Positions 1 to 63,577 of a stretch of DNA of 64,000 nucleotides are shown here, one piece after another. Under the pieces are notes generated by a model. The model ran no database searches and was not told where the DNA came from. It saw only the letters and a program-made list of their open reading frames with translations. Every line of letters begins with the position of its first letter. Position 1 is the first letter of the stretch. The DNA is from Xestospongia bergquistia (Eukaryota; Porifera; Demospongiae; Haplosclerida; Petrosiidae). Made by a program: the position numbers and the translations under genes. The stretch covers positions 8,219,432-8,283,431 of the forward strand of contig OZ014416.1 in NCBI GenBank assembly GCA_963965975.1. Direction: 5' to 3'.

Positions 1-455
1 AAGCTCTAGACTAGTGAACATCAGTACTTACCACAGTGACCTAGGATAGGTACCATTAGTAAGCTCTAGACTAGTGAACATCAGTACTTACCACAGTGAC
101 CTAGGATAGCTACCATTAGTAAGCTCTAGACTAGTAAACATCAGTACTTACCACAGTGACCTAGGATAGGTACCATTAGTAAGCTCTAGACTAGTAAACA
201 TCAGTACTTATCACAGTGACATAGGATAGCTACCATTAGTAAGCTCTAGACTAGTAAACATCAGTACTTACCACAGTGACCTAGGATAGCTACCATTAGT
301 AAGCTCTAGACTAGTAAACATCAGTACTTACCACAGTGACCTAGGATAGCTACCATTAGTAAGCTCTAGACTAGTAAACATCAGTACTTACCACAGTGAC
401 CTAGGATAGCTACCATTAGTAAGCTCTAGATTAGTAAACATCAGTACTTATAACA
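1..455 (+). repeat. 60-bp intronic satellite, array 1 (7.5 units)
   Basis: Seven complete 60-bp units plus a partial eighth, cut by the left window edge, all in the orientation that begins AAGCTCTAGACTAGT and ends CTACCATTAGT. Units differ by only a few substitutions. The array lies in the intron preceding the last eIF3h exon, and the partial last unit stops about 30 nt before that exon's acceptor. The unit is rich in short palindromes (TCTAGA, ACTAGT, CCTAGG) and carries splice-like motifs on both strands. The same unit recurs at eight other places in the window. Confidence 0.95.
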
Positions 456-481
456 TTATCATTAGTCCATTACATTTATAG

Positions 482-1492: not shown

Positions 1493-4400
1493 TTACAATT
1501 TACGATGACATGATATGTTAGCTTCTTGTTTTAATGATAATCCTTGATGTTGTAAAGAGTCTATTTTTTCAAAGGGTTGCTTCATTGTAGCTGAAAAAAT
1601 ATCAGGCTGAATAGTAGGATGACTGGTGTTTCTGGCAAATTGAGAAGGGGCGTGGTTAACACCAGGATACGGTAAGTTCATCATAGACTTTTTCCCATCA
1701 TAAACACCGAGTAATTCATTGAAATAATTTTGAATTACTGATAGAACAGCACTAATATTAGGATTACCAAATCCATGAGATAGCAAGCTGAAATTTGTTA
1801 GACCAGGATATGGATTTGATGGGTCATCAGGACGTAGGTTTGTGGGACCTCCTACAGTATTGACCATGGCCTGAAGCTCTTGAATAAGTACCCTGAATAA
1901 GATTAATGATAGGTAACTTAGGTGTGTGTGTGTGTGTGTAGGGAGAGGGAGAGAGAGGGAGGGAGAAAGGTCACTTACTGTGCAGCTTGTACCATGGATA
2001 TTCTTCTATCAACATGTGGAGTATTTATATGCTGAGCCCCGATAATCTGAGCTAATTCCGTATGAGGAAAAGCATTTTCACACAGACGTCGGAAATCTTC
2101 AGCAAGATGTAGAGCTTCTCCCTCAACAAGAGATGTTAACAGAGATAATTCAGCTGCCTTTCTACGACCAGCTGGAAGAGACAGTCCTTTGGCTTCAAGT
2201 CTCTGTCTAAGGTGATGCCCACCATTTTTGGACTTGGCTCTATTGAAAAGGAAATGATAAATAAAATAATACATTAAAAATACAAGGTAATAAATTAAAT
2301 TATAATTACTGGAAAGCAGGCTACAATATGATCATACTATAATATTAATACATTAAATTTATAACATTCTTTTGTGGTGTGGGGGGGGAAGGTAAGGTAA
2401 TGACTCAAATAGTGAATATCAAACACAATAAATTAAATAAAAATTTTAATATTCACTAAAATTCATAAATCAGTCGCATTTCAAACATCATTTACAATCC
2501 ACAACCACAACATCCATTACACATGTCCATTACACGTATGTATACAAGAATGTACCAGCTGTATTGAAATGTATATAACATAGAGAATAGACTATTATCA
2601 TATAACCTTTATTAATAACAACAGACACAATGTCTAGACAATCACTGTGTATCAATAAAATCTAAGTATAAAGTTATTCCAACATTAATAATGCCCAAGG
2701 ATATAGCTTATACAACTGACTTCATATTTTATTAATGCTGTTTACATACGAATACTATAATTGAATCAGGACAGGGTAGGAGTTTAAATAGCTAGATTGT
2801 ACAAGATAACACAAAAACTATAGTGTATATATTAAACAAACATGCTTATCAGAAGTTGGTATATCCTTCTCAGGCAGTCAATGTCAAAGGTCAAGCCTCA
2901 AAATGTATAGTACTATAGTGTATAGTGGGTTATTGGATAGCCACATATTTGTCCAATTAAAGCACAAAGAGTTGTAATAATTTATCACTTTAAACATCAC
3001 ATATCTATCAATAGTATTGTGTTACTACCACTAATGAGACACTACAAATTATTGGACATTACAATGACTTCAGTATGTATTCACAATAATCTAAGATAAC
3101 TCTAGATTACCTACAATTAAGAAGTTTAGACTAGTGAAAATCCCACAGTGATCTAGGACATCTACCACTAGACTAGTGAACATCAATACTTACCACTAGG
3201 TCACTGTGGTAAGTACTGATGTTTACTAGTCTAGAGCTTACTAATGGTAGCTATCCTAGGTCACTGTGGTAAGTACTGATGTTCATTAGTCTAGAGCTTA
3301 CTAATAGTAGCTATCCTAGGTCACTGTGGTAAGTACTGATGTTCACTAGTCTAGAGCTTACTAATGGTAGCTATCCTAGATCACTGTGGTAAGTACTGAT
3401 GTTCATTAGTCTAGAGCTTACTAATAGTAGCCATCCTAGGTCACTGTGGTAAGTACTGATGTTTACTAGTCTAGAGCTTACTAATGGTAGCTATCCTAGG
3501 TCACTGTGGTAAGTACTGATGTTCATTAGTCTAGAGCTTACTAATGGTAGCTATCCTAGGTCACTGTGGTAAGTACTGATGTTTACTAGTCTAGAGCTTA
3601 CTAATGGTAGCTATTCTAGGTCACTGGATACGTACCATTAGTAAGCTCTAGACTAATGAACTGGTGCTTACTACCGTGATTTAAATAGTGATAAATTACT
3701 AACAAAAATACAAGACAATACAAAAGACCTACGCAGTCTCAATTATGTAATAATCATACAACTTCGACGATATCCATTACTCATACAACAAGTCTAGAGA
3801 AGTAAGTCACAAAATAGCCCACACATAATAATATAATAGTAACTAAATCTCAAAACTAACACAAAATAAACAAAGATGCTGAACGTTTCGATACACACTA
3901 ATTCACCTACGTTATTCTCAAATATCATTTGTTACACGTGCATAATATAACAGATCATTAATGATCTCAATTGTTATAATTTTGAAACATAACAAATCTA
4001 CTATACAGTTTAATACAATAACTATTATTTACATATTAATTATAATACTATATTAAGATCATATACAGCATATAACATTGTTTATGGCTGGACACCTCAC
4101 ATTTGTAAACAAATTCAATATCAAGTCTAATTGTCAATTGGCTCTCCTTTTGGCTATCAATATCTCTGACAGTAACTCCCTCGATTGACCCCATTCCCCT
4201 AATATGGATTTGACACATAGTATTGCTACATTTGTCAAAGCAAAGTTTATATTCCTTAAATGCTCGACTATGGAGGTCTAATCACACAATACACTACAAA
4301 AGACTCAATTTAATATCATTGTCAATTTCTTTAATATAGAGACTATCACTTTCAAAGTCAAAAACAATAATAATTCAATTATTTCATTTATAGTGAACTC

Positions 4401-7400
4401 CCACAAGTCCATCCACAAGACAAATAGTCCCTACATGTAAGCACTATATACATGTATATACACATATATTGTAGTTCATTGTATTGTATGTTCTGCAAAT
4501 GATGTCATTTGTTCCCTACAATGAAGAAACCTTGCTTGTGGTAGCAGCCACAAACCACCACAGATGTCTGCACTATCCTACTCATCACTTGAACAACAAG
4601 TACGCAATTACAATGAAACCACGTCATTTTTTTGCTATCAATCACTATAACTCAATTATTTCTACTCTCCCACATAATAAATCAAATAAAATCTATACCT
4701 TCTAAGTATTCCACCAAGTACAGATGCATTAAGACATTCTGGATTGGAAAGACGCCTTCGAACTTCATCTAAAGAAACCCTGTATTTTTGTGTAGCACTT
4801 AATAAAGAGAGACGACCCGGTACAAGGCAAAACAGTTCGTCATCTGTGGAACTACTTTGAAAGTTAGTAGATTTTTGATCTGGGGGGTCATTCTCTTCTG
4901 GTTCTGGTGTTGAACCTGGAGAGGGGGGGGAGAGAGAAAGTGGGTAGTTAAAGAATGCAGACAAAAATTACTGAAATTGTTATAAAATTGTTTGTGATTA
5001 CATCATTGTTTGCTTATAAAAAATTCCCTATGAAATAAGTCAGTAAATAAAATTTATACATACAGGTTGAAAGCGAAATATTTCCTAATCTCATCCTTTA
5101 TATTCAATCAAAGACTATCAAAGACAATGAAAGCCTTTGTCTATTCCCACTACTGTAACCTCAATACCTTACTCCCATAGGAAAGTTTGTACATTAAAGG
5201 CACTTGTATTAATCCCTATTAATAATTTAAATGTATTCTATATTGAGAATGCCTTTATTCAAAGGCTCCAAAATGTCTGTCATGAAGACCATTCATTCAT
5301 AGTAAACTTGACTGACATTTAGAAATAATATTAAGGTACAATGCTCCCAAGTACTGTCAGAGAAAGGACAATGATGCGGTACCTACTTGGATGTGACAAT
5401 AATAGAACACGTGTCATAATGCATTCACTTCCAGTACATATGCATCATTTAATATAGTCTTGTCCTTATATGGACATGTACATGTAAAAAACATGAAAAA
5501 GTACAATACACGTATTTATAATTATAATAGCAATATTAATATAGCTTTTCATTTATTGTAATATTAAACAAACCACACTTGAACAAACAGTCTGAATTCC
5601 TCCTAACCAGTACACTAGCATTACTGACATACTCTGAAAACTTAACCACAATAAAAATAATGCCAAAAGAATGCAAAAACACACAGATGTATTTAGACGG
5701 CTTCAGTGTGGTTGTCATAGCAACCACCATTATAGAAACCTTAAGTCAATACAGGCCACAGGTTACACCTGCAAGTCTATTAATTTTAAATTAAACCGTT
5801 TGCCTCCAGGCACATTTACTATATATGTAACATACAATCTAACATAATGTTGCTATGCACACACTCTGTATTGAAGACAGAGTATAAATGATTGAATATT
5901 TATTGTTACCTCTACTGGATGATGGTGAAGAGAAACTGGATATTCCAGAACTTGGTCTCTCAATGGAATGTGAATTAGGAGGGAACTGTGAAAGGAATCT
6001 CTATAAGAGAGAGAGAGAGAGAGTGAGGGGAGGGAGGGAGGGAGAGAGAGGGAGAAGGAGAGATATAACATCATCAAGTACAAGTCATAATAATAATTAT
6101 TACATCATATTTATTTAAATAACATTAAAAAATTAGAAAACAAATACATACTAATATGTACCACAACAACAACACATTATGTCACCAATCAAAATAAATC
6201 ATAAAAATGTTTGTCAAACCCTTACTATGTAAGGGAGTCATTAAGATGAAAGTTACTCCTTACAAGCACAAGGTTGTCATTTCATTGCATTAGATTAGGC
6301 CAATATAAATATTTTAGCTACTTTAACACACACCCTCTACAAAACCACCGCCATAATTGTGGTGACGGGCAGACTGGGGCAATTATTTCACAGCTATCAC
6401 AACTAAGAGAGACTCCAGGTCTCAAGAGCCTGTGAAATAATTAACATTAATTATCAGCTGCAGGACCCAGTGTGAATGTGTGCAAGGCTCTAAATAATTC
6501 CATTGAAACATTATTTTTGCCAGCTGTTTGTGTTATTTAGAGGGTACTTGTGAGAACTGTTGATATAAAGGCAGGCTAGATTGTCAGCCATCCTCTGTAA
6601 TGTCCCTACATGTATCAACATCACATAGATGGGACAAATGACACATTGTATTTGAGTATGAGGTGTGTTTAAAAATTGTCTTGTCTATCATTTACACTGC
6701 CTATGATAGGTACCATTAGTAAGCTCTAGACTAGTAAACACCAGTACTTACCACAGTGACCTAGGATAGCTACTATTAGTAAGCTCTAGACTAGTAAACA
6801 TTAGTACTTACCACAGTGACGTAGGATAGCTACCATTAGTAAGCTCCAGACTAGTTAACATCAGTACCTACCACAGTGACGTAGGATAGCTACCATTAGT
6901 AAGCTCCAGACTAGTTAACATCAGTACCTACCACAGTGACCTAGGATAGCTACCATTAGTAAGCTCTAGACTAGTGAACATCAGTACTTACCACAATGAC
7001 CTAGGATAGCTACCACATTAGTATGGGACGGCTTACATCCAACAGTTACCAAGGTTACACACATGAACAGTATTATATCACATCTTATTACACACAACAT
7101 TATGTATCACAAAAGTGAGAAAAGCTATTACCAACCACATTATCAACCTAACTCCCTGACCCTCAACGTTATAATATACAAACCGTAACAGTTGCTATGT
7201 ACCAGAGACAGAAAGATGAGAATACAGTCAACAAATATAAACACACCTAGTTTCATAAACTATAAAATGCCTTATTTAGAACTATAGGTTACAATATGTC
7301 TTCACAATGGTATTAAATTATCTATTAAAAGATTTGAAAATCAGTTAAGAAGTCTTTTATTTCAGACTAAAAATAATATTCTTTTACCAATATATATATC

Positions 7401-10400: not shown

Positions 10401-12218
10401 ATAGTGACCTTGTGATATAGACTAGTGTCTCAAACTTGTATATTTCTTTATGAATAAAGTAGTTGTTAACATATGACACACACATACTGAGACAAATGGA
10501 CAGGGACTTTATAATTTGAACTATAATTAGCAACCTTTATGACTATCTAGACTACTAATTAGTAGTATTTGTCATAGAACAACCACTAGACATCATTACT
10601 TAACTGTGATCTAGGATAGCTATCACCAATAGTGAACATCAGTACTTACCACAGTGACCGGGGATAGCTACCATTTGTAAGGTCTAGACTAGGAAACATC
10701 AGTACTTACCACAGTGACCTAGGTTACCTAACATAACAAATTATGTGAACATCTGCACTTATCACAGTGACCTAGTGACCTAAGATATCTACCTCTAGAC
10801 TAGTAAACATCAGTACTTACCACAGTGACCTAGGTTAGCTAACGTAAGTTCTAGACTAGTGGTTGGCTACTTGAATTCAATTATGATACGTAAAAAAACT
10901 AACCCTTGATGACTCTTCAATTTTCTTTCTGGATACACTCTGACCAGACAAAGGACAGGTACCATCACTGGATCCAGATGATTTAGAAGATATTCCATCA
11001 ACAGCAGTAGAGTAAATACCACTAGAAGCTTTTGACAAACAACCAGAATGTGACTCAGTATCCTGTTCACCTTCAACGTCAGCATCATTTTTGTCTGTTA
11101 CCAATTCTATTTCCTCTGCAGGTTCTTTATTGATCGGTGAGCTTTGGTTCGAATCGCATTCATTACCACAATCAATTCTACTTGAATTCTGTGGCATCAT
11201 AATTCCTACATGATATTCAGTAGGCGCAATTCTAGGAGCTGTTTGCGATCCATCTTTAGTTAAGTCAATACTAGTGTGACTTCCTTCACTCATACTTGAA
11301 CAGCCGCTAGAACTGCTTACTGACGGACATGAATTTACAGAGGGTGGAGCACACGGAGAGCCGATGTACATCATAGGTGATAAAGGTGATCGATTATACA
11401 TATAGAAAAAAGGTGAAGAGAGATGAGAAGAAAGAGGAGAGAAGACGTAAGGGTAGATATTATTACTGTTAGTTGGTTGTGTTGTGCATGAAGTGGTGCA
11501 GTTTGTAGACACGATTACATCATTTCTATGAGTTGAAGCAATAGAAATTAATGATGGCGAAGAAGGCTGTTTATCACATGCACTTTCAATGCGAGAATCA
11601 CTGCAATTTGTAGAATTTTTTCTGTTTTTAGAGAGTTGGTTTGATGTTGGGTCTACGTTAGACGAGCCCTTTAAAATGTTGACCTCGTTTTGTAATGGAT
11701 TAAATGGTGATACAACGCCAAAGCCTTGAGGCACTTTGAATGGTTGAGTGGATGTAGGAAAAGGATAACTCATTTGATATGAGGGTGTTCCATATGACCC
11801 CATCCTGGCAGTAAGTGCAGGATCTATTGTGGTAGTGGGTGAAAGTCCAGACGTTATGTTACTATGCTGTCTGGTTGATGATGATGCCAATGGGCTCGTT
11901 AAAAAGGGATAAGCTGGAGCAATACCAATTGGAGTACTGGGAAATTGATTAACAGGTGGTTTTGTTAGATGTGAAAGGAATGTCAATGGCTGGTGATGGA
12001 ATTCTCTATTAGACTCTGCTTCACTTTGTCGCAGTAACTTCTCTTTCTCCATAATCACCTCTTTCTAAAAATTATATTTTATTATTATAAATAAATATTT
12101 ATAATTAAGTCCTTACTGTTAATTTGGTCACTTTAACATTTGGAGGTGCTTTGCGATTTTCTTCTGCTAGTGAATGTGGAAGTGACCGCTTGCGGCTTTT
12201 AGACTGTGAAGAATTCAT
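1493..12218 (-). CDS. TFAP2: AP-2 family transcription factor
   Basis: AP-2 proteins are nuclear, sequence-specific activators that bind GC-rich palindromes as dimers through a basic helix-span-helix domain. Exons on the minus strand: 12218-12117, 12064-10904, 6000-5910, 4915-4699, 2239-1979 and 1892-1493. All junctions are GT-AG and keep frame, giving about 743 residues. The conserved DNA-binding/dimerisation region is encoded by the last three exons. It runs from [16 protein letters not shown] through [19 protein letters not shown] (joined across a 2.5-kb intron), [20 protein letters not shown], to the helix containing [11 protein letters not shown]. The long second exon is Ser/Pro/Tyr-rich and low complexity, as expected of a transactivation domain; I see no clear PPxY motif. 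The start at 12218 is the first ATG of an exon that is open upstream to its acceptor at 12245, so a further 5' exon may exist. Introns 2 and 4 (4.9 and 2.5 kb) are very large for this window and contain three 60-bp satellite arrays. It lies head-to-head with MRPL15. Confidence 0.92.
3121..3680. repeat. 60-bp satellite, array 2, with two orientation switches
   Basis: Lies in the AP-2 intron between exons 2239 and 4699. It starts with degenerate units in the forward orientation (3121-3199), switches at 3196-3200 into about seven units in the reverse orientation, and switches back near 3625-3632 into a final forward unit. The first switch falls at a CTAGG core, where CTTACCA and TGGTAAG face each other as a small perfect inverted repeat. 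The only array in the window that contains both orientations. Confidence 0.95.
6340..6610. promoter_or_regulatory. candidate intronic regulatory element in AP-2 intron
   Basis: A patch that looks less AT-rich than the rest of this 4.9-kb intron. It contains an inverted repeat (AATTATTTCACAG near 6381-6394, CTGTGAAATAATTA near 6431-6444) and a TATA-like string (GATATAAAGG at 6562-6571). It could be an enhancer or an alternative promoter, but this rests only on composition and the inverted repeat. The remainder of the intron shows no gene that I can support. Confidence 0.2.
6707..7021 (+). repeat. 60-bp satellite, array 3 (5 units)
   Basis: Five forward-orientation units in the large AP-2 intron (5909-6001 exon side to 10904), antisense to the gene. 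Two units carry GACGTAGG instead of GACCTAGG, which shows local spread of a variant between neighbouring units. Confidence 0.95.
10583..10862 (+). repeat. 60-bp satellite, array 4 (about 5 degenerate units)
   Basis: Degenerate forward-orientation units with truncations, ending about 40 nt from the exon-2 donor of AP-2 at 10903. Unit lengths vary because of internal deletions, so this looks like an older array than array 1. Confidence 0.9.
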
Positions 12219-12879: not shown

Positions 12880-15504
12880 ATGGCCACGTGGGTAAGAAAA
12901 GCTATCGACTTGACTCAAATACCTCGAATTAAACTCAATAATCTTCAAGATCTACCAGGAGCGAAGCAGAAAGTAAGGCAATTATTTTAAGATTAATAGC
13001 ATTGGTCATCTGATTTCTCCATGTTGTATTCAATATCTGAAATGTACCTGTCAATGAAAAACAGGCTCAAAGAGTTGGACGAGGTCCTGGATCAGGGCGA
13101 GGTAAGACATGTGGACGAGGACACAAAGGCCAGGTATATAATACAACAGGAAAATAATAACATTGTTACCTGTTATCCTTAGGGTCAACGAAACAGGATG
13201 GCCATTAGGATTGGATTTGAAGGTGGACAAACGCCATTCTATTTGCGAATACCAAAACATGGGTTTAAGAATAGGTAAGTTAATGACGCGTGTATCCCTT
13301 TGATAACGAGTTCCTTGTTGTAATAATTGTTACTATTGTTTTAAAGTAAGTGTGTGGATGGATGGATGGAAGGACGGACAGATGGATGAATGGATGGATG
13401 AAAGGATAGACAAATGGATAAATGAAGGTAAAAATGGATGATTGGTCTGATGGAAGGGCAGACAGATGGATGGATAAACAGAAAGAATGGACTGACAGAT
13501 ACAAAATGGATACATCCAATAAAAATGGACAGATTTTAAACTACACTTTTTCTAATGGATATATTCTTTAGCATTTTTTTATGTAGTACTCACAATAATA
13601 TATGATCTTAAAACAACAAGACCAGATGTTAAATAAGATTATTAAAAATAACAATACTATTTTATCTCATTTCTCCTTTTTGTCCATTACTATATATCCA
13701 TTACTAATACTATAGCATCCATTACTAATACTATAACATCCATTACTAATACTATATATCCATTACTAATACTATAGCATCCATTACTAGTATTATATAT
13801 CCATTACTAATACTATAGCATCCATCACTAATACTATATATCCATTATTAATACTATAGCATCCATTACTAATACTATATATCCATTATTAATACTATAG
13901 CATCCATTACTAATACTATATATCCATTATTAATACTATAGCATCCATCACTAATACTATATATCCATTATTAATACTATAGCATCCATTACTAATACTA
14001 TATATCCATTATTAATACTATAGCATCCATTAATTTTAGTATATCCATTTCTTTGTTCTGTTTTTAGGTTCAGAGTAGAATACGAACCACTAAATTTAGG
14101 ATGGCTACAGCATTTAATTAACACAGGGCGTGTCGACCCCACCCATCCAATTAACATGTACACACTCAATAAAATTGGTGTCATAAAGAATATTAAAAAT
14201 GGAGTAAAATTATTAGCTGATGTAAGTGGGAGGGGGCTTATAATTAGAACATCTCTCATCTGGACACTTAATTAAAGGAATGTCCTCTTAATTAAAGACT
14301 ATTAATAGCTATATAATACAATAAATGTATTTTTAATATCTACATGTAATTTGTAAACTATTTATTCAGTGTCTAATGTATAATTTCATACATCTTAGGG
14401 AGCACACCTGTTTAAAGTTAATTAAAGGAATGTCCTCTTAATTAAAGACTATTAATAGTTATATAATACAACAAACATATTTTGAATATTAACATGTAAT
14501 TTGTAAACTTCTTATTCAGTGTCTAATATATAATTTCATGCATCATTAGAGAGCACACCTGTTTAAAGTTAATTAAAAAGGAACGTCCTCTTAATTAAAG
14601 ACTATTAATAGCTATATAATACAATAAATATTCTTTAGTATCTACATGTACATGTAATTTTAAAATCCTTTTATTCAATGCACAATTTATCCTTTAATTT
14701 CATATTTTATTTAGGGAGCAGATCTTTTTAAAGCTAAAGTTAACATTGAAGTTAGTAAGGCATCTAAAACTGCCATAGAAGTTGTTGAGAGAAATGGAGG
14801 AACTATTACGACTGCTTACTATAATAAGTTAGGTCTGCGGGTTCTCTTAAAACCAGAGAAATTTGAGGATCGGCAAAAACCTCGTCGTGCCCTGCCTGAT
14901 AAGAAATTAATGAAGTATTATTTGAATCCAGAGAATAGAGGATATTTACTTACTGAAGAAGGAAAAGAGAGATTAAAAGTAAGCTAGTCACTGTGGTAAG
15001 TACTGATGTTCATTAGTCTAGAGCTTACTAATGGTAGCTATCCTAGGTCACTGTGGTAAGTACTGATGTTCACTAGTCTAGAGCTTACTAATGGTAGCTA
15101 TCCTAGGTCACTGTGGTAAGTACTGATGTTCACTAGTCTAGAGCTTACTAATGGTAGCTATCCTAGGTCACTGTGGTAAGTACTGATGTTCACTAGTCTA
15201 GAGCTTACTAATGGTAGCTATCCTAGGTCACTGTGGCAAGTACTGATGTTCACTAGTCTAGAGCTTACTAATGGTAGCTATCCTAGGTCACTGTGGTAAG
15301 TACTGATGTTTACTAGTCTAGAGCTTACTAATGGCAGGTATCCTAGGTCACTAGTGATGTTTCTCTTCTCTCTCACTCAAGGAAGGAGGTATGGAGGGAG
15401 CCTATCTTGGTAAAGATGGAAGAGTACACATTCCTGGTAAACGTGTCACGCTCTATTCTCCACCCTCTCCACCTCAAGACACACTCTCAGATAATTCAAA
15501 TTAA
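12880..15504 (+). CDS. MRPL15: mitochondrial large ribosomal subunit protein uL15m
   Basis: Structural protein of the mitochondrial 39S subunit, homologous to bacterial L15. Six exons: 12880-12972, 13065-13133, 13183-13274, 14068-14221, 14715-14978 and 15382-15504, giving 264 residues with every junction in frame. The L15 core is plain: the Gly/Arg-rich loop [19 protein letters not shown], then [19 protein letters not shown], the segment [16 protein letters not shown], and KAKVNIEV further on. The N-terminus begins [11 protein letters not shown] and is short and basic, consistent with mitochondrial import. Intron 2 is only 49 nt. Intron 3 holds ATGG-type and 20-bp minisatellites; intron 4 holds a tandem duplication that copies the exon 5 acceptor; intron 5 is a 60-bp satellite array starting at its donor. 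The stop lies 33 nt from the PITHD1 stop on the other strand. Confidence 0.93.
13349..13520. repeat. ATGG/GGAT-type degenerate microsatellite
   Basis: Degenerate tetranucleotide repeat (GGATGGAT, GACAGATG variants) inside MRPL15 intron 3. Confidence 0.85.
13686..14036. repeat. 20-bp minisatellite in MRPL15 intron 3
   Basis: About seventeen copies of a roughly 20-bp unit (CCATTACTAATACTATA plus TAT or GCAT). The two endings largely alternate, so the higher-order period is about 40 bp. It ends close to the exon 4 acceptor (AG at 14066-14067). Each unit carries a TACTAAT box that resembles a branch point. Confidence 0.9.
14262..14745 (+). repeat. about 155-bp tandem triplication spanning the MRPL15 exon 5 acceptor
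   Basis: Three copies of a block containing AATTAAAG...GTCCTCTTAATTAAAG, a CATGTAATTT stretch, an ATTTCAT tract, then TTAG followed by GGAGCA (or AGAGCA) and TTTAAAG. In the third copy this TTAG/GGAGCAGATC is the genuine exon 5 acceptor (exon starts 14715). Copies one and two put equivalent AG sites at 14397-14398 and 14548-14549, so intron 4 carries two decoys of its own 3' splice site. Confidence 0.85.
14982..15355 (-). repeat. 60-bp satellite, array 5 (6 units)
   Basis: Six reverse-orientation units that fill nearly all of MRPL15 intron 5 (14979-15381). The intron donor GTAAGC at 14979 runs straight into a unit (TAGTCACTGTGGTAAG), and the array ends about 30 nt before the acceptor. Units are almost identical, suggesting recent amplification or homogenisation. 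In this orientation the GTAAGT and TACTAAT motifs of every unit are in the sense of the gene. Confidence 0.95.
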
Positions 15505-29785: not shown

Positions 29786-31469
29786 ATGGCGTCTGGGTCT
29801 GGGGGATTGACTTCGACATTGTTTCAACGAACTTGTGTAACTGTGGAAGCGACCACAAAGCAATCAGCTGTCGTAAGTGAGCATACACATACACTGCACG
29901 TGTAGAACTAAAAACACATTAATACTATTAACAAGTAATAACAAGTAAGTTGGTTTGTTATTATAACATCATATAGAAAATGAAAACTTAATTGTTTGTT
30001 TTGTCTGTCTTAGATCCTTTTTCTTCATGGTCTAGGAGACACAGGGTAAGTTTAGTCGTGTCCTATGGATATAACCGATATTGAGGCTACATGATCTCTG
30101 TACCTTGACCCTAAACCATAATGTAGTAACATAGCATTGTGTCACTATTTTTAGTAGAAGTGTACTTACATTGAAAAGGACCAGTCTGCATGCTATCTAC
30201 CAGTTTGCTGACATTTTTGGGCATTATGAACTTGTGTATATTTCAATACATTAAAATAATCACTATACTGATATAATAACATATAATAAGTCATAATGGA
30301 TAGCTCATTTGTATAATAGACATAATTATACATGTTTGATAATGGAATTTAAATAACTACTTATAACTATACCTACTATGAGTATCTATTAATCCCTAGA
30401 CATGGATGGTCTCAACTCATAGGTAATATTCGTCCATCTCATGCTAAGGTCATTTGTCCAACAGCGTAAGTAGTACTATTATTATATAAGGTAATAATAT
30501 CATATACTTGTCTTTATAGACCTGTAATGCCTGTCACTCTAAATGGAGGCATGAGAATGCCAAGCTGGTAACTAGTAAATTATATCCTATTATATGATAG
30601 ATATCTACTTGTATCATTACCACAGTGACCTAAGATTGCTACCATTAGTAAGCTCTAGACTAGTGAACATCAGTACTTACCACAGTGACCTAGGATAGCT
30701 ACCATTAGTAAGCTCTAGACTAGTAAACATCAGTACTTACCACAGTGACCTAGGATAGCTACCATTAGTAAGCTCTAGACTAGTAAACATCAGTACTTAT
30801 CACAGTGACATAGGATAGCTACCATTAGTAAGCTCTAGACTAGTAAACATCAGTATTTATCACAGTGACCTAGGATAGCTACCATTAGTAAGCTCTAGAC
30901 TAGTAAACATCAGTACTTACCACAGTGACCTAGGATAGCTACCATTAGTAAGCTCTAGACTAGTAAACATCAGTACTTACCACAGTGATCTAGGATAGCT
31001 ACCATTAGTAAGCTCTAGACTAGTTAACATCAGTACTTACCACAGTGACCTAGGATAGCTACCATTAGCTCTAGACTTTTTTTTATAGTAAACATCAGTA
31101 CTTATCATAGTGAAACTGATATATTTGTTCCCTACTGATTAATGAAGTGATGTATATATATACTTTTCATTCATCTTAACTGATTTCTTCTATGATAAGA
31201 TAACAGTATATGTTTCACTATGTTACTTAAATATTTACAAATTAACTGTTAGTTTACAATGTGTCATAGCAATAACTTAAAACATTGAAACTGTAATTTA
31301 TTAGACAGTAAATTATTGGATTTTAATTGTATTTGTTTTTAGGTTTGATATTTATAATTTAGCACGAGAAGGTAAACAAGATGAGGAGGGAATTAAGAAT
31401 GCTACTAAGAATGGTAAATGAATGAATAGTCAGATATATGGATGGATTGGTGGAGAAATGAATATATTG

Positions 31470-33824: not shown

Positions 33825-37382
<3,558 letters not shown>

Positions 37383-42256: not shown

Positions 42257-42628
42257 TACCACAGTGATCTACCATTAGTAAGCTCTAGACTAGTAAACAT
42301 CAGTACTTACCCCAGTGACCTAGGATAGCTATCATTAGTAAGATCTAGACTAATGAACATTAGTACTTACCAAAGTGACCTAGGATACCTACCATTAGTA
42401 AGATCTAGACTAATGAACATTAGTACTTACCAAAGTGACCTAGGATACCTACCATTAGTAAGCTCTAGACTAGTGAACATCAGTACTTACCACAGTGACC
42501 TAGGATAGCTACCATTAGTAACCTCTAGACTAGTAAACATCAATACTTACCACAGTGACCTAGGATAGCTACCATTAGTAAGCTCTAGACTAGTAAACAT
42601 CAGTACTTACCACAGTGACCTAGGATAT
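42257..42628 (+). repeat. 60-bp satellite, array 8 (6 units)
   Basis: Six forward-orientation units. Two neighbours share a variant (AAGATCTAGACTAATGAACA, ACCAAAGTGACC), evidence of local unit duplication. Lies in the presumed 5' UTR intron of the XK-related gene. Confidence 0.95.
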
Positions 42629-53038: not shown

Positions 53039-56000
53039 TTATAGCACATGACCTTCTGTTAATTCGTCCATTGTTTTGTTAATATTTTGCAAATACTGAT
53101 CAATCATTGACTAAGAGAGAAAAAAGTGTTATATAAATTTATTGAGGTAAGCTAAATATGAAATCTATCTTGTTATAAGTACATTTGTACAGTCAGTAAT
53201 ATACAAAACTAGTAATGATGTCATTGAACTTTTAATAATACAAGTTAATTGATAGTTTTATGCAACAAGGATACAATTGGAAAAGTTTTATTGGAAATTA
53301 AAATTAAAGAACACATTTTTGACTGGAATTAAAGTCTAAATATAGTCTACAATCTCTACTACTGTGATAATTATGGACACAGTCTCATTATTTCTGATTG
53401 TCTCTGTAGTTTTCACAGAGTATGATTTGACTTCAAAGGACTTGATCAAATTATATTGAGTATTATTATAATTTAGCTTACCTGATCAGTAGGTGGTGAT
53501 GGTGGAGGAGGAGGAGCTTGAGGTGGTGGTGATGGTGGATGAAGTGAAGATGGTGGTGAAGGGGGAACTTGAGATAGAGGTGGTGGTGGAGGAGGTGGCA
53601 GTAGAGCTTGTGATGGTGGTGGTGGTGGAGGAGGAGGAGGTGGTGGAGCTTGTGATGGTGGTGGTGGTGGTGGAGGAGGAGGAGGTGGTAGTGGAGCTTG
53701 TGATGGTGGGGGAGGTGGTGGAGCTTGTGGTGGTGGTGATGGTGGTGGAGGAGGAGGAGGAGGAGGTGGTGGAGCTTGTGATGGTGGTGGTGGTGGTGGT
53801 GGTGGAGGAGGAGGAGGTGGTAGTGGAGCTTGTGATGGTGGTGATGGGGGAGGGGGTGGTGGTGGTGGTGGTGGTGGTGAAGTAGGAGGAGGAGCTTGTG
53901 ATGGAGGAGGTGGTGTTATAGATGATGGTAATAAAGATATAGGTAGAGAAGATGATTGTACACTTTTTGTCTCTGTAGACAAATTTTCACTCAAGAATTT
54001 TTCAAAATTTGGTCTATCTTTTTCAGGAATAAAAGTCTTCATATCTTATAAAAAAATTAAACAATAGATTGTCTGTTAATAATATTGCAGCATCACAAGA
54101 CAAAATTTTGAGGTGAAGACCATAAAAATATTTTACAGAATTATATAATACAGTATCTATTGTACTACTAAAATAATTAAAATATTATTAGCAGATACAG
54201 TCCAAAATATTTGTGAAATTAGTATAAAATATTTTTTTTATTAATCTACATACCTTATTAATAATAATATAATCTTATTAATTTACATACCTGGTAATAA
54301 AAAGTATCTTGCTTCTCCATATAGGGCCATTAACTGTTGACAGAATTCCTCTACTGGTCGTCCATGACGATACAACTTCAAGTAGTCAGCAAACTGTTGG
54401 AGTTCTTTGAAGTTTAACTGTTTATGAAGCTGTTTGAGAAAAGAATAACTTTCAGAACAACCATGACATGTTTTTTAAAGGTAGAATCATTTATACTATT
54501 TATTCTAAGTTATTATGTTCACATACTCATACACTTATAATCTTTATTTAGATAGTGTGTTTCTGTGGAATACAATGTACAAATTTTCCACCTCTATATA
54601 TTAACACCTTGAATATTGTCCTCACTATAAAGGTGTCCACAATATAGATATTAGTATGGGACAAATTCTAAATATTACTGGTTAGACTTATTCAGAGAGA
54701 AGCTCTCTTTATCCTAGCTAGCCTAATCCATGGATGAGGTCATAGGGTATTAAAGGAGAAGATGGTTCAATTCTTGTCAAGGTTAGGTTTGTATTTGGAT
54801 TTGTCTCTTGTGCATAAAAAATTGACTTACTATCTCCATGTATTGTTTTACTAACTGTTCTGAATCCTCTGATGTCATCGGAGGGAGATAGGGGAGAGAG
54901 GATGTTGGTATCTCTCTTAGCAGAGGAAGTGATGGTGATGGAGATGGGAGAGGAGAGGGTGAGGAAGGAGGTGATGGTATAATTGTGATAGTGGGTATAT
55001 CTGCTGGAGGGGTTGTTAGTGATGTGGGACGAAGAATCTTGGGATAAGGAGATGCCTGAAGTCTATAAGAAATGTTAATAATAGGTTTTAAGTTAGTAAA
55101 TGGTATATGAGGTAATTGTGACCATATTAACACAAAGGCTTTTAAATCCATACTTAAACAATGGAGACATTTTACTTTAAATAACTAACGTTTCATCTGA
55201 CATCTCGTCTCCAGCTAATGCTGACTCATGGTCTTTTACAATATAGTTGGGTGGAAGAGGAGTAGAGGAAAGGGGGTGTGGCCGAGGGGAGGGTTCAGAG
55301 TAGTCAATTGACTCTTGTAGTTGTTGTATTGTAGCTTCAGTATAGACTATTTCAAAGGCTTGTTCTAATATGTTACACATTTCCTCTGCTTCACCCTGGA
55401 TGGGTCAATAGATATATAATATACACACTATTAAGTGGAGTTGGTGGATGGAAGAAGTAAGTGGATGGATCCAATGATTGCTAACCTGTTTTGTACAAGA
55501 AAATACGAATATCTTGCAGAGAGTGGTGTGCTTGCTATGTCCAGTTTTTATGAATAAAAAGTGATCTTGGTCGTCTCGTATGTAGCTCACCGAGGCTATC
55601 TCATGTAGTGGAATACGATGAAGTGTAGCCTGTGTATGGTAAGTACTGATGTTTACTAATTTAAAACTGGGTTATCCTGTGGTAAGTACTGATGTTCACT
55701 AGTATAGAGATTACTAATGGTAGCTATCCTAGATCACTGTGGTAAGTACTGATGTTTACTAGTATAGAGCTTACTAATGGTCACTGTGATAAGTACTGAT
55801 GTTCACTAGTCTAGAGCTTACTAATGGTAGCTATCCTAGGTCACTGTGATGTTTACTGGTTTAGAGCTTACTAATGATACTCAGATTACTAGCTAATATC
55901 CTTAATATGTTTAACATAGAGCAGTTTATTGTTATGTATTAACTTACAAAAGAATTGTTGTCTTGAACTACTTTAATTCCATAAGCTGATAGAGAAAGTA

Positions 56001-57756: not shown

Positions 57757-58233
57757 CTAATTACGATAGCCAAGAAGAAAAACGTCAGTAAATATATCAT
57801 CTGTCCCACTTGTAAAGGCTTTCATTGCCTCAGCAAGATTTTTGTAGATCTTCTGTGACTGTGGCAAACGAGTCTCAGGGATTGTCCACTCACCAGGCAA
57901 GCGTATATAAAACTTTTGCTCATGAAGAGGCAACCATAGATTTGCAGAATTCATGACAAAGTCATCATCTTTAGTGAAAACCATGTTCATGAGTTGACTG
58001 TAGTGTCGTCCAGCCATATCTTGAGTGTAAACTTCATAAACAGATCTCCTGAGAGGTCCTTTAGCTTCACGCACAGTCACAAAGATATAAATCAATATCT
58101 CAGTTGCATTAGGTGGAACATATTGGGACACATCATAGCATACTGGGGGAACTTTACTACTTAAAGGTAGTTTTCCCAACCATGGAGTCTGGAAAAAGTC
58201 AGTAGTAAACGAAACATATTGGTGTGTAGACAT
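57757..58233 (-). CDS. unrecognised intronless family, copy A
   Basis: Single-exon 158-residue protein starting MSTHQYVSFTTDFF and ending VFLLGYRN. I do not recognise the family. It is about 94% identical to copy B (59971-60447) and clearly homologous to copy C (63095-63577). Invariant blocks: CYDVS.YVP.NATE, a strand IYIFVTVR, RRSVYEVYTQD, YSQLMNMVFTKDDDFVMNSA, WLPLHEQKFYIRLPGEW, and an alpha-helical NLAEAMKAFTSG. Alternating hydrophobics suggest a beta-sandwich of about eight strands. There is no signal peptide or membrane segment and only one cysteine, so it is probably cytosolic. A TATA box (TATATAAGAG on the minus strand, around 58330) lies about 100 bp upstream and is conserved in copy B. 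An in-frame upstream ATG at 58290 exists only here and is not conserved, so 58233 is preferred. Confidence 0.85.
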   Translation of the reverse strand: MSTHQYVSFTTDFFQTPWLGKLPLSSKVPPVCYDVSQYVPPNATEILIYIFVTVREAKGPLRRSVYEVYTQDMAGRHYSQLMNMVFTKDDDFVMNSANLWLPLHEQKFYIRLPGEWTIPETRLPQSQKIYKNLAEAMKAFTSGTDDIFTDVFLLGYRN

Positions 58234-59970
58234 TATGATATATGCTGTAAAACTTGAACTTTGTGAATTTGGTGATGTGAATTGAGACAAGTCTCTAGAT
58301 AGCTAGACTGATTGTCACACTAGTTAACAGCTCTTATATAGAATTATAAGTCTTAATTTAGATAGTTTATTAACTATGTATAGGAAAACATATCCTAATA
58401 GTATAATAAGTTTAATATACAGTTATAAATATAATATCATATTAGGGAATACTTAGTCACATTAACTTTATATTGAGACATAATAGTTAGACAAATAACA
58501 AACAATATAGTTAGTTGTCTATTGAAATAGTCAAATAATATTAATAGATAATATTAAAATTGAAACATAAAGGACATTTATAAAATGTGTAGTTATAACT
58601 ATTAAAACATTAACAACTTCATTTAATAACTAGTTCTTGTTATATTTAGTAACTATTAACTTTATTCCTCTTTGTTATTAATAATAATACATGCTATCTT
58701 CATACATGTGTGATATAATAAATTGTATTAATCTATCTTTATGAGGACTATCCAAACTATTTCAGGCTTGTTTGTAATACAGGAACAGTTTGTAAGTATA
58801 GTTCACATTAGTTAAGATGACATATTCATTTTCGATCATGAACTCAAATTAAGATGATAATATAGATTGTATCAGAGTAGTTTGTAACATAATCACTTTA
58901 AATTTTTATTGATTCAGACTTTTAGGTCCTTATTGAATGACATTAATGATAACATTGATTTGTTAAAATTATAATAATCCATTTAGTACATGTACATTAG
59001 TAAATTAATGAATGTCTTTAGCTATTTTATAAATTTGACTGACCACAAACAAAGACACTACTTAACAATCATCTTGAGTCATTTTTTAATTCAATCCATG
59101 GTATTTTTAGAAATTAAGAATTAAAAATGAAGCTGGAATCTCAAAAATATGATTTAGCTGACAAAGCCTGACATATCTATTTTTGTTCAATCCCCACTTG
59201 GTGGATTTAGTTATGATACAAATATTTATAGCTCACTGTACAATTTTGAGAAACACTTATACACTGATGACTGTTATCATAATGTTAACATAAGTTGCAT
59301 TGATAGCAAGACATTAGCAAATTTGTCAAACTAGGAAATGTAAAGCAGTGATGTGATATTACCGCTAAACAAATGATGCAGCTGTCATTAGTTTATGTAA
59401 CAGTTTTAGAGTACAAGTGTCACCTTTTTTCCGTCTACCTTCCTTGTCCACACCTATTATCAACTACAAGTCTCCTATAATATGACATAGTCAACAACAA
59501 TAACATTGTTATAACACTTGTATTTCAAATACACACCAATCTAAAGTCTTTATCATGATCTTAAATTATATTAAATCCAATGAGTTATTGCCATTGTTTC
59601 ATCTACAATAATCACTGACTAATAAGAGGGTCAGGACATATAACATCATCATAATTAACATTGCACATGCATGTCTATCAATAGCTTAGTTAATATTATG
59701 TACACGGTTTTCTGATAACAAACTGATGCACAACCATTAATAGAATTGACCAAGTTAACTGTATTATTTAAAAGTTATTGATTTGGTAGTTATGACAGTT
59801 ATTTGTATAGAAATTAATGATTTTATTAACCTCAAAAAAATGTATATGAATTATATAATTAAACAAATTATCAACTGCAAGAAATGAGCCTCAATAAAGT
59901 TTATATATCAAAAATAGTTAGCCTATAATATATATTTAAAGAGTCTTGCAGCATTTTTGCCTTTTGTAGG
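58234..59970. other. intergenic inside the segmental duplication
   Basis: Contains the promoter of copy A (TATA around 58330) and, from about 59190, the duplicated 3' flank of copy B. The middle (58700-59190) is single-copy AT-rich sequence. No other gene seen. Confidence 0.6.
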
Positions 59971-60447
59971 CTAATTACGATAGCCAAGAAGAAAAACGTC
60001 AGTAAATATATCATCTGTCCCACTTGTAAAGGCTTTCATTGCCTCAGCAAGATTTTTGTAGGTCTTTTTTGACTGTGGCAAGCTAGTCTCAGGGATTGTC
60101 CACTCATGAGGTAGACGTATATAAAATTTTTGCTCATGAAGAGGCAACCATAGATTTGCAGAATTCATGACAAAGTCATCATCTTTAGTGAAAACCATGT
60201 TCATGAGTTGACTGTAGTGTCGTCCAGCCATATCTTGAGTGTAAACTTCATAAACAGATCTCCTGAGAGGTCCTTTAGCTTCACGCACAGTCACAAAGAT
60301 ATAGACCAATATCTCAGTTGCATTAGGTGGTACATATTTGGACACGTCATAGCATACTGGGGGAATTTGACTACTTAAAGGTAGTTTTCCCAGCCATGGA
60401 GTCTCGAAAAAGTCAGTAGTAAAAGAGACATATTGGTGTGTAGACAT
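59971..60447 (-). CDS. unrecognised intronless family, copy B
   Basis: 158 residues, same start and stop contexts as copy A and about 94% identical to it. Replacements are scattered and mostly conservative (for example ILIY/ILVY, PGEW/PHEW). Nucleotide similarity extends at least 400 bp upstream (through GGAAAACATATCCTAATAGT) and several hundred bases downstream, so copies A and B arose by a recent segmental duplication of two kilobases or more. The intact frame in both argues that both are functional. The TATA element and its distance to ATG are preserved. Product unknown. Confidence 0.85.
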   Translation of the reverse strand: MSTHQYVSFTTDFFETPWLGKLPLSSQIPPVCYDVSKYVPPNATEILVYIFVTVREAKGPLRRSVYEVYTQDMAGRHYSQLMNMVFTKDDDFVMNSANLWLPLHEQKFYIRLPHEWTIPETSLPQSKKTYKNLAEAMKAFTSGTDDIFTDVFLLGYRN

Positions 60448-60950
60448 TATGATATCTACTGGAAAACTTGAACTTTGTGAATTTTTTGATTTAAGTTAAG
60501 GGAAATCTCTGGATAGCTAGACTGATTGTCACACTAGTTAACAGCTCTTATATAGAATTATAAGTCTTAATTTAAATAGTTTATTAACTATGTATAGGAA
60601 AACATATCCTAATAGTATAATAAGTTTAATATACAGTTATAAATATAATATCATATTAGGGAATACTTAGTCACATTGATTTATATTGAGACATAATAGT
60701 TAGACAAATAACAAACAATTAATATAATTAGTTGTCTAGTCAAATAATATTAATAGCTAATACTAAAAGTGAATCATAAAGGACATTTATAAAATGTGTA
60801 GTTATAACTATTAAAACATTAACAACATTTAATAACTAGTTCTTGTTACATTTAGTAACTATTAACTTTATTCCTCTTTGTGATTGTCATTGTTGTATTT
60901 ATTAGTAACCAATTTGGTTGATGTCTCTGCTTATATTGATTACTTGGACA
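60448..60950. promoter_or_regulatory. copy B promoter and duplicated upstream flank
   Basis: Duplicate of 58234-58690 with small indels; it includes the TATATAAGAG element (minus strand, around 60545). Confidence 0.55.
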
Positions 60951-61358
60951 ACACATAAAATTGCAGCTGGATTTAGTAATGATGGACTTTTCAAATACAA
61001 TACAGTAATGTTCTTTTGTTCTATGAATAATAAATACACTAATATTCCTTTGCTCTAGGAACAATCAGTATTTGGGACTTGATAACCTCTCTCTCATTAC
61101 TGCACTCTAAAGATAATAGGATATATCCTATTATACAATTAAATGCGCACAATGGTCCTTGTCGAAGTCTTGCTTGGTCTCCAAATGATACTAATATATT
61201 GTTCTCTGGTTAGTTAAATATCTCTTAATATAATGTTGTTATAAATGGTATTTATTATAATTAGGTGGGGATATATAATCTCTGAGATAGATAACAACCA
61301 CATTATCCATCAACTTATAAGTATCTCTTATGTATTGTAGATGGTGTAATTATTAAAG
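60945..61358 (+). pseudogene. WD40-repeat gene fragment, forward copy
   Basis: Exon-like pieces of a WD40 protein. A relic AGFSNDG is near 60975. An open stretch at 61061-61213 (GTISIWDLITS ... AHNGPCRSLAWSPND ... ILFSG) is bounded by TGCTCTAG and GTTAGT. A short piece encoding DGVIIK follows a TTGTAG acceptor near 61341. GTISIWDL and HNGPCRSLAWSPND are textbook WD40 features. No complete gene can be built, so this is a fragment. It is the left arm of an inverted repeat with 61470-61800. Confidence 0.6.
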
Positions 61359-61439
61359 GTATGTGGCCTCTATTGTTGCCTGTTGTATTTATCACTGAAG
61401 ATACAGCATAGGATGAATGAATGGAAGATTATAATAGAT

Positions 61440-61800
61440 AGTTTATGATGTCATCAGTGATTGTTGTATATCCCAGAGATTACATATCCTATCCAAACCA
61501 CCTAATACCATCTATAACAACATTATATTAAGAGATATTTAACAAACCAGAGAACAATATATTAGTATAATTTGGAGACCAAGCAAGACTTTGACAAGGA
61601 CCATTGTGTCCATTTAATTGTGTGATAGGATACAGTAGAATGTGAGAGGGTTATTAAGTCCTAAATATTGTTTGTAGAGTAAAGGAATATTAGCATGTTT
61701 ATTGTTTCTATAGTAAAGGAATTATATTAGTGTATTGTATTAGAAGAGTTCTACCATTACTAAATCCAGCTGTAATTTTATGTTGTTTTTGTCCAGGTAC
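61440..61800 (-). pseudogene. WD40-repeat gene fragment, inverted copy
   Basis: The minus strand repeats the neighbouring fragment: AGFSNG near 61770, a decayed version of the GTISIWDL exon with a stop, then NGPCQSLAWSPN and ILFSG. After a GTTTGT...TTAG intron comes GGLDRICNLWDIQQSLMTS, a WD40 blade end followed by a stop. It retains an exon the forward copy has lost and vice versa, so both derive from a longer intron-containing parent. Confidence 0.6.
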
Positions 61801-63094
61801 ATTAAATCACAGTGATATAAACTAATCCCACCTTATTAGGATGGCATTTACCTTAATATTCTAGTACTTCCATCACTGCAGACTAGTAACCATTACTATA
61901 GCAAAGTTACCATAGCAACAACATGTATTATATATGTAACATAGCAAAACTTCCCATAGGACAATTACCACAACAACATTACCATAGTAACAGTTACCAT
62001 AACAACATTAACATAGCAACAGCACATACAATATAATTATCTTCATCACACATTGTTTAATTACATAAATCTGAAACCTTATAGCAAAGATTTTGTAGTC
62101 AGTACAACTGAATTGATAATGTCAAAACTTTAATGTTCATTTTTGCCATACAAATACCAGGGCGTGCTGGTCTGATTTGAGCCCACACAATTATACCAAG
62201 TGGACAATATGACCATGTGAATCCCTTATATTTGCCTCTATAATAACATATAACAACCTTGTATTTTATCATTAAGAGTATCGTTACATTTGCTTACTAT
62301 CACAGCCATATGTGGTCCATGTTATATAATGTACTATAATAAGTTAAAACGTTCCTCTCAACCACGATGCCTCACAACTAATTTATCTGTAGTCTCATTT
62401 TCTTACCACAAGAACAGGTGTGTAATTTGCTGGTTAACAAAAAGTGGCTTCATTACTCTTAAGTCAATGATAGTCTTCTTCTCAATTTTGCTGTCCCCAT
62501 GAAATAATAGACCTTATTGATTGACCCCTTATCATATGAAAGTACATTAACGATATATGAAAGTACATTACTATAGTACGATATGGAATATATGCAGTTT
62601 TTATGCAGTAAACCTACTTATAAAACAATAGCTCATCAATGTCAGTATGTTTGAAGTATATTCAGTTTTATATGCTTACAATTGTAATTTTATTAACACT
62701 TCTAATTCCAAACTATTTGGATTTGAAAGCTGTTTTATATATGGATAACAGCAACCAGACCTTCTCTCAGAGGAAGATAACACTTTGACAAACAAGCATT
62801 ATATAACATCAGGGGTACATAACTGACACATGTTAACTTGTATACAAGTAATGTCTTAGACTAAGGGGTCTCTTTGTTAGAGACAGACTAAATGCCTCTA
62901 AATGTCAGTCAAATTGACTTCTTTGTTACAGTGTGAAAAATTTAATGATTTTTTTTAATTTAATGATTCTTTAAACAACAACAACAATGATCACTTGATC
63001 AATTGACTTCTTTGTTACTACAAAAAAATTACACAATTTAAAAAGGGCCTACATACTCATTGAGTCATTGAACCGTTCATATTCTCAGTTTGAG
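61801..63094. other. intergenic with clustered X-box-like palindromes
   Basis: Three X-box-like sites lie close together (GTTACCATAGCAAC at 61906, ATTACCATAGTAAC at 61979, GTTACCATAACAAC at 61993). The rest is AT-rich; an ORF at 62290-62502 has no supporting features. Confidence 0.5.
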
Positions 63095-63577
63095 CTAGTT
63101 ACGATATCCAAGTAGAAAGACTTCATTAAAAATATCTTCTGATCCTTCTGTAAACTCCTTCATTGCTTCACCAAGATTAGAATGGGTCTTTGTTGACTCC
63201 TTGATTGCGTTTGGAGGAGGAACAGTCCACTCACCAGGCAAGCGTATATAAAACTTCCGTCCATGAAGTGGCAGCCATATATTTGCGGAATTCATGACAA
63301 AGTCATTGTCTTTAGTGAACACCACATTCATGAGTTGACTGTAGCGTCGTCCAGCACCATCTTTAGTAAAAATGTCATACACAGATCGTCTAGTAGTACC
63401 TTCAGGATTATTGCGAACGGTTATAAAAACATAGATCAAAACTTCAGTAGCATTTTCTGGTACATATTCGGACACATCGTAACAATTTGGTTGTGGTAAA
63501 GGATTAAGAGGCAGGCATCCCAGAGAAGGAGTCTCAAAAAAATCAGTAGTAAACGAGACGTATTGATGAGTAGACAT
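63095..63577 (-). CDS. unrecognised intronless family, copy C
   Basis: 160 residues from MSTHQYVSFTTDFF to the same VFLLGYRN ending, roughly 70% identical to copies A and B. The core VVFTKDNDFVMNSANIW and KFYIRLPGEWT is retained. It differs in having NPEGTTRRSVYDIFTKDGAG and a longer, polar loop (PPPNAIKES) before the final helix. An upstream in-frame ATG (63589) would add four residues. A TATA box (CTTATAAAAGAAG on the minus strand, around 63680) lies about 100 bp upstream of the ATG, the same layout as copies A and B. No coding introns. It is the oldest of the three by divergence. Confidence 0.85.
   Translation of the reverse strand: MSTHQYVSFTTDFFETPSLGCLPLNPLPQPNCYDVSEYVPENATEVLIYVFITVRNNPEGTTRRSVYDIFTKDGAGRRYSQLMNVVFTKDNDFVMNSANIWLPLHGRKFYIRLPGEWTVPPPNAIKESTKTHSNLGEAMKEFTEGSEDIFNEVFLLGYRN

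Follow-up and report, generated by a model that had tools for sequence, protein, structure and literature searches.

The MRPL15 gene of Xestospongia bergquistia has an intron that is filled by a 60-bp tandem repeat, and the repeat unit itself resembles a minimal intron. This raises the question whether the unit makes introns or has entered introns that already existed. The window, that is, the whole stretch of 64 kb analysed here, corresponds to C6:8219432-8283431; positions are given relative to it unless a contig is named, and the assembly searched comprises 146 Mb in 21 contigs. The intron and its array are as follows.

14979..15381, plus strand: MRPL15 intron of 403 nt, phase 0 (LK^EGG), with donor GTAAGC at 14979 and acceptor CTCAAG ending at 15381
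14987..15352, plus strand: array made up of 6.1 copies of the 60-bp unit (98% matches), sense to the gene, starting 8 nt past the donor and stopping 29 nt short of the acceptor

The first-pass annotation had described this intron as filled by the array, which was reproduced: a purpose-written ab initio gene finder returns 14979-15381 exactly, and the MRPL15 protein is continuous with its homologues over the LK^EGG junction. Since the Pfam domain stops before this junction, the support for it comes from the homologous proteins.

In the 60-bp unit, GTAAGT, TACTAAT and CCTAG boxes can be recognized, and the distance from GT to AG was confirmed to be 51 nt. The spacer between GTAAGTACTGATG and CTTACTAATGG, previously put at 18-20 nt, measures 15 nt. 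It had also been claimed that 51 nt is a minimal-intron size for the host; short introns are frequent in the gene models, 42 of the 190 array-free predicted introns being 75 nt or shorter (range 37-74 nt). Of the six MRPL15 units, all of which had been said to look like complete introns, five have the GT and the remaining one reads GGCAAGT. Scored with weight matrices from the same 190 introns, the sense donor GTG|GTAAGT is good (77th percentile) and the sense acceptor CTATCCTAG (GCTATCCTAG|G) is weak (8th percentile). Splice motifs were likewise thought to exist on the opposite strand. One possible instance is the acceptor of a CCM2-like gene, CTTACCATACACAG, but the antisense donor and acceptor of the unit are both weak (10th and 6th percentile). 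A donor and acceptor pair matching the quality of the unit, at a distance of 43-60 nt and on either strand, is found in 0.6% of shuffled units and in 50 of 2,811 (1.8%) host non-coding 60-mers treated as tandem, frequencies that refer to donor and acceptor only, with the TACTAAT box left out of the requirement. Conservation of the GTAAGT and TACTAAT boxes is not significantly above that of other A/T positions (P=0.27), and selection on the splice boxes was rejected on this ground. Units diverge by 4.2 of 60 positions within arrays and by 5.2 of 60 between arrays (28 arrays, 205 units). Hairpin-driven spread was rejected as well, given that a single unit and a dimer fold no better than shuffles.

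The unit is present at nine places in the window, as had been counted before, and amounts by length to about 50 copies where about 45 had been given. The eight places other than MRPL15, with the introns of those that have homology support, are listed here.

1..481, plus strand: window part of an eIF3h intron (whole intron 912 nt, -430 to 481), with Pfam eIF3h_C spanning the junction
-427 to 450: array of 878 bp in the eIF3h intron, antisense
3102..3679: array with units mostly on the plus strand, each edge carrying degenerate units in inverted orientation; the models place it within an intron of a minus-strand gene that, by eye, we take to be AP-2-like
6700..7023, minus strand: array
10590..10861, minus strand: degenerate array, sense, within an intron predicted for a gene on the minus strand
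30617..31113, minus strand: array
37099..37197, minus strand: intron of 99 nt in TDH (threonine dehydrogenase), with Pfam Epimerase spanning the junction
37136..37190, plus strand: single unit, antisense to TDH, 7 nt past the donor and 37 nt short of the acceptor
42269..42627, minus strand: array
55630..55947, minus strand: intron of 318 nt in a CCM2 (malcavernin)-like gene, exons set by eye, with a PTB alignment to malcavernin crossing the junction
55637..55879, plus strand: array in the CCM2-like intron, antisense, 68 nt past the donor and 7 nt short of the acceptor

Gene models put six of the nine places in introns (1-450, 3102, 10590, 14987, 37136 and 55637), with no gene context assigned to 6700, 30617 and 42269. 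Seven loci had originally been assigned to introns and two more, among them eIF3h, to very likely introns; the eIF3h assignment was confirmed by the family match across its junction, but the full set was not reproduced. For the CCM2-like gene, the gene finder missed two exons and returned an intron of 751 nt; the 318-nt version was set by eye. The acceptor CTTACCATACACAG of this intron sits at the edge of the antisense array and, at 7 nt from it, may be derived from the array. Two other features of the window are a 70-bp tandem array of 17 copies that adjoins the TDH gene (34331-35528) and, on the minus strand, a run of three predicted single-exon genes that resemble each other (57757-63577).

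A search of the whole assembly, which the first-pass annotation had proposed, was carried out with a 35-base core at up to three mismatches. It gives 1,945 sites in the 146 Mb (909 forward, 1,036 reverse), and the reversed 35-base pattern gives none on either strand. The abundance of the unit is therefore far beyond chance, and, with tandem copies of a single family spread over many loci, the unit bears this mark of a dispersed satellite. A first look yielded 471 candidate places in the genome, 40 of which were scored. For a rarer exact variant, all 32 hits were listed, and they form 21 separate loci outside the window. Sixteen of these are no more than 1.1 Mb away from a contig end, compared with at most 31.5% expected (P=3e-5), with a cut-off chosen after the data were seen and neighbouring loci that are non-independent. 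A second variant has six sites, five of them in C6:8.19-8.32 Mb, which suggests local spread. Dispersed satellites may have a large heterochromatic or centromeric source array; one unusually long array of the unit was noticed here, of about 6.3 kb (C1:9200282-9206588), far from contig ends. Copies of TTAGGG number 0, 0, 1 and 0 in the terminal 500 bases at C6 right, C3 right, C4 right and C6 left, respectively; with the telomere repeat near-absent at these four ends, we do not call the arrays subtelomeric. In viral, bacterial and archaeal contig collections, an exact 26-base core of the unit has no match.

The position of the arrays relative to genes was determined with a simple gene finder of our own, trained on 264 kb (the window joined to 200 kb of adjoining sequence), some models of which are poor; for example, a predicted exon overlaps the array at locus L004. 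With default models, 12 of the 19 arrays in the 264 kb are in predicted introns. With looser models, which also recover exons visible by eye at L005 and L044, 16 of the 19 are intronic, whereas 58% of the non-coding bases are (P=0.014). Other non-coding tandem repeats in the same 264 kb are intronic in 25 of 45 cases (Fisher P=0.045 versus the unit). None of the 19 places is centred in a predicted exon. An extended set of 35 arrays adds 16 arrays in 15 loci elsewhere, namely L002-L006 (top first-look matches) and L040-L049 (10 of the 21 rare-variant loci); one 23-nt match was dropped, and the set does not include L007, L008 (the long array on C1) or L029-L039 (iPLA2-like). In this set, 29 of 35 arrays are in predicted introns, 14 sense, 14 antisense and 1 mixed, with placements that include some on loose models (-197048, -195446, L002, L004 and L042). 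One intron, C6:8212745-8213603, carries two arrays in opposite orientation.

Ten introns have junctions supported by homology. Besides MRPL15, matches to TDH, myosin head, eIF3h, patatin/iPLA2-like, GH47, CCM2-like, SH3 (L041), PP2A-A and ISWI families cross the junction. The distances in nt from donor to array and from array to acceptor are as follows.

MRPL15 8/29; eIF3h 3/31; TDH 7/37; myosin 23/55; iPLA2-like 11/35
GH47 9/33; ISWI 25/40; PP2A-A 40/43; CCM2 68/7; SH3 protein 84/28

In all ten introns, of which four carry the array in sense and six in antisense, the predicted splice sites are outside the array as defined by BLAST, which begins 3-84 nt after the donor and ends 7-55 nt before the acceptor. 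The sequence that is not array amounts to 34-112 nt (34-83 in nine of the ten), mostly the size of a minimal intron. The ten are a non-random sample, chosen because exons are near. The PP2A-A acceptor was set by eye at 43 nt and confirmed, where the gene finder gave 258; the spliced ISWI protein has two extra residues at the junction, and a homologue search with GH47 gave no match. The gap between array and acceptor is 7 nt in CCM2, 10 nt in a coiled-coil gene (L044) and 15 nt in a gene named DNAJC8-like by eye (L043), the latter two giving no match in the family search. Being so near the acceptor, the array probably supplies the branch region in these three introns. Among the unselected 19 arrays, a residual of 100 nt or less is found in 5 (6 with CCM2 corrected), and random placement expects 0.46 as against these 5 (P=7e-5).

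The edges of the arrays have little in common. An all-against-all BLAST of the 400-nt flanks of the 35 arrays gave no common terminus; its matches are confined to duplicated genes, neighbouring arrays and one weak match of 37 nt, and the 3' tails of different arrays do not resemble each other. The phases at which arrays start and end are not significantly clustered (Rayleigh P 0.15 each) in 34 of the 35 arrays, one iPLA2-like duplicate having been dropped; phases were taken from 45-nt local alignments, and that of L005 looks off. No target-site duplications were noticed by eye.

Other tandem repeats also fill short introns, so that the unit is not special in this respect, although the comparison is small. 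Unrelated repeats with periods of 20, 24, 33, 40 and 51 also fill introns and leave 44-78 nt. A 40-mer array of 457 bp starts 7 nt after a donor and ends 37 nt before an acceptor, and in another TDH intron a 33-bp repeat (35825-36065) leaves 26 and 33 nt to the splice sites. Unrelated minisatellites that fill short introns nearly up to both splice sites were seen at -52998, -49226, -42781, -11231 and 35825-36065. Residuals of 100 nt or less occur for 5 of 19 unit arrays and for 11 of 45 other tandem repeats (P=1). Because three of these 11 control rows (residuals of 4, 27 and -85 nt) are model errors, stricter counts were made: 6 of 19 with CCM2 corrected versus 8 of 45 (P=0.32). When a plausible residual and no more than 50 nt at each end were required, the counts were 4 of 19 and 5 of 45 (P=0.43). 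These point estimates are higher for the unit than for the controls, but not significantly so. The enrichment of short residuals, not significant in comparison to other tandem repeats, is thus not counted as evidence for unit specificity. Short-intron filling by minisatellites may be a general feature of the host genome.

The age of the introns was approached through relatives, here ORFs from genomic and environmental DNA that continue from an exon into an intron, compared at the peptide level and with genomic status judged by eye. The TDH intron at R^S is also found in ORFs P0098 and P0100, which exit at the same place and read unit-like residues immediately past the donor (equalled by 0 and 3 of 500 shuffles, respectively). 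It is missing from P0081, P0059, P0068 and P0072, which read through and look genomic. The MRPL15 intron at K^E is present in the host, in P0016 and apparently in P0025, both ORFs exiting after RL(K/I). The tail of P0016 past the exon is TNGSY, as the unit would read (14 of 500 shuffles as good); the readable part of the P0025 intron has no unit-like residues (86 of 500 shuffles as good). The K^E intron is lacking in P0017 and P0051-P0054, in which RLKEGG is continuous. Furthermore, P0021, P0026, P0029 and P0046 depart from the protein after LNPxNR, P0051-P0053 join it at RGYL, and P0017 is continuous over both places. An MRPL15 intron is therefore at NR^GYL in some relatives and at LK^EGG in others (P0016-P0054), which points to gain, loss or both within 13 codons. 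Not counted, as possibly spliced or bacterial, are P0001-P0008 (MRPL15) and P0056-P0058 (TDH); P0060-P0067, P0069-P0071 and P0088-P0090 are outside the comparison, P0010, P0027 and P0031 were excluded as too divergent after NRGYL, and P0011 reads through and is uncounted. Judged from these peptides, the unit-bearing introns of TDH and MRPL15, the only two comparable with relatives, are lineage-restricted. Three unit-free introns of the same genes look, by eye, shared with relatives, and the difference (two restricted with units, three shared without) is not significant.

Paralogues of an iPLA2-like gene give a different picture. The family has two copies in the 264 kb and eight more copies or fragments with the unit (L031-L034 and L036-L039; 51 to 734 unit bases). 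Two further copies on C1 (L035 with L050, and L051) are array-free, with no unit by BLAST, and the intron is retained; it is 1,047 nt long in L035/L050, the copy read to the intron end. Wherever the upstream exon is preserved, the intron begins at one and the same position, whether or not it holds the array. L033 (C12:3838791) and L034 (C12:3675945), both iPLA2-like exon fragments with part of the unit, have in common a block of about 1.86 kb that is 99.4% identical. With the idea that an intron would be present only where the unit is, TDH agrees and MRPL15 agrees in part, P0025 showing no unit in the readable part of its intron; the iPLA2-like paralogues disagree.

It is likely, in our judgement, that the unit is a dispersed minisatellite that entered existing introns, its intron-like boxes being incidental, and the intronic arrays are probably a tolerated passenger, not an intron-making element. 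The first-pass annotation had put first an introner-like element that later multiplied into tandem arrays. In its full form, this reading would have the unit inserted into exons, where it gave rise to new introns spliced at its ends or close to them, before the tandem amplification. Such an origin would account for the good donor and weak acceptor 51 nt apart in each unit, for the lineage restriction of the TDH and MRPL15 introns, as predicted for an intron-gaining element, and for the TDH unit common to the close relatives P0098 and P0100. Against the minisatellite reading also stand an intronic share somewhat above that of control repeats (P=0.045) and the closeness of the array to the acceptor in CCM2, L044 and L043. 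The introner reading is nevertheless unsupported, since the predicted splice sites are outside the arrays, both orientations occur (14 sense, 14 antisense), flanks including 3' tails are non-homologous between loci, and unrelated minisatellites have the same architecture. P0025 without the unit in its readable intron part, array-free iPLA2-like paralogues that retain the intron, the lack of target-site duplications to the eye and the non-significant two-versus-three comparison also speak against it, and we regard it as unlikely. The other proposal of that annotation, a satellite tolerated only in introns with motifs acquired by chance, fits best in the milder form of one tolerated mainly in introns, with 16 of 19 arrays intronic on loose models (P=0.014; P=0.045 versus repeats) and 12 of 19 on default models.

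A variant would be that some introns arose with the unit, the satellite acting as an intron on either strand, with array growth and edge decay hiding the origin; traces of unit-born introns would then be seen in the CCM2 acceptor and in the restricted distribution of the TDH and MRPL15 introns. To this we assign a low probability, and a role of the unit in intron gain seems, altogether, about equally improbable. It could also be imagined that a transposon with satellite-like ends, as in some TCAST elements, spreads the arrays, with inverted edge units as remnants of terminal inverted repeats. The inverted units on both sides of the 3102-3679 array and the oppositely oriented pair in C6:8212745-8213603 would agree with such a carrier; 35 arrays without common terminus or shared flank, unclustered phases and folding no better than shuffles make it doubtful, to a similar degree. 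If introns were gained where a stretch of local exon is duplicated in tandem (the AGGT model), short array-filled introns with splice sites near both ends would be explained. However, the same unit occurs at many loci and none of the 19 places is exon-centred, so the arrays are not copies of local exons, and this model is highly improbable.

Comparable systems are known. In Tribolium euchromatin, the TCAST satellite forms short arrays near or inside genes, with 29 of 68 elements in introns and no common flanking motif, according to the available part of PMC3411249. The likeness is in one satellite unit occurring as dispersed short arrays without a common flank; the differences from what that part describes are the 60-bp unit, the contig-end bias, the filling of very short introns and the 471 first-look candidates (40 scored). 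Unlike TCAST, no transposon-like form of the unit was found in the flanks of the 35 arrays. With introners, the unit shares a multi-copy family in introns and intron-like motifs (PMC9860276, in part), but here the predicted splice sites are outside the element, both orientations occur and arrays are tandem, a word that does not appear in the accessible part of that paper. Intronic minisatellites of C. elegans are tied to alternative splicing decisions, as far as the available text of PMC4039745 goes. Local exon or intron duplication also gives tandem repetition around a short intron, instead of which a dispersed satellite is found here. Among literature titles and abstract openings, a coverage mostly outside subscription papers, none describing such a unit was found.

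On the preferred reading, the 60-bp unit would have spread as many short arrays, towards contig ends, into non-coding DNA including existing introns, presumably as naked repeats, for example, via circular or template-switch intermediates. In several introns the array would sit between the donor and the acceptor region of a short intron, which would thereby stay spliceable and lengthen from a near-minimal size into the hundreds of bases. The splice sites are presumably used as predicted, and that the introns are older than the arrays seems probable, with direct support from the iPLA2-like family only. If unit-born introns did exist, tandem repeats would have offered an animal genome a way of gaining introns. 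If, instead, the arrays are tolerated passengers, the presence of intron-like motifs says little for a satellite being an introner, and this genome would provide a clear case of minimal introns becoming long via tolerated arrays, whatever their sequence.
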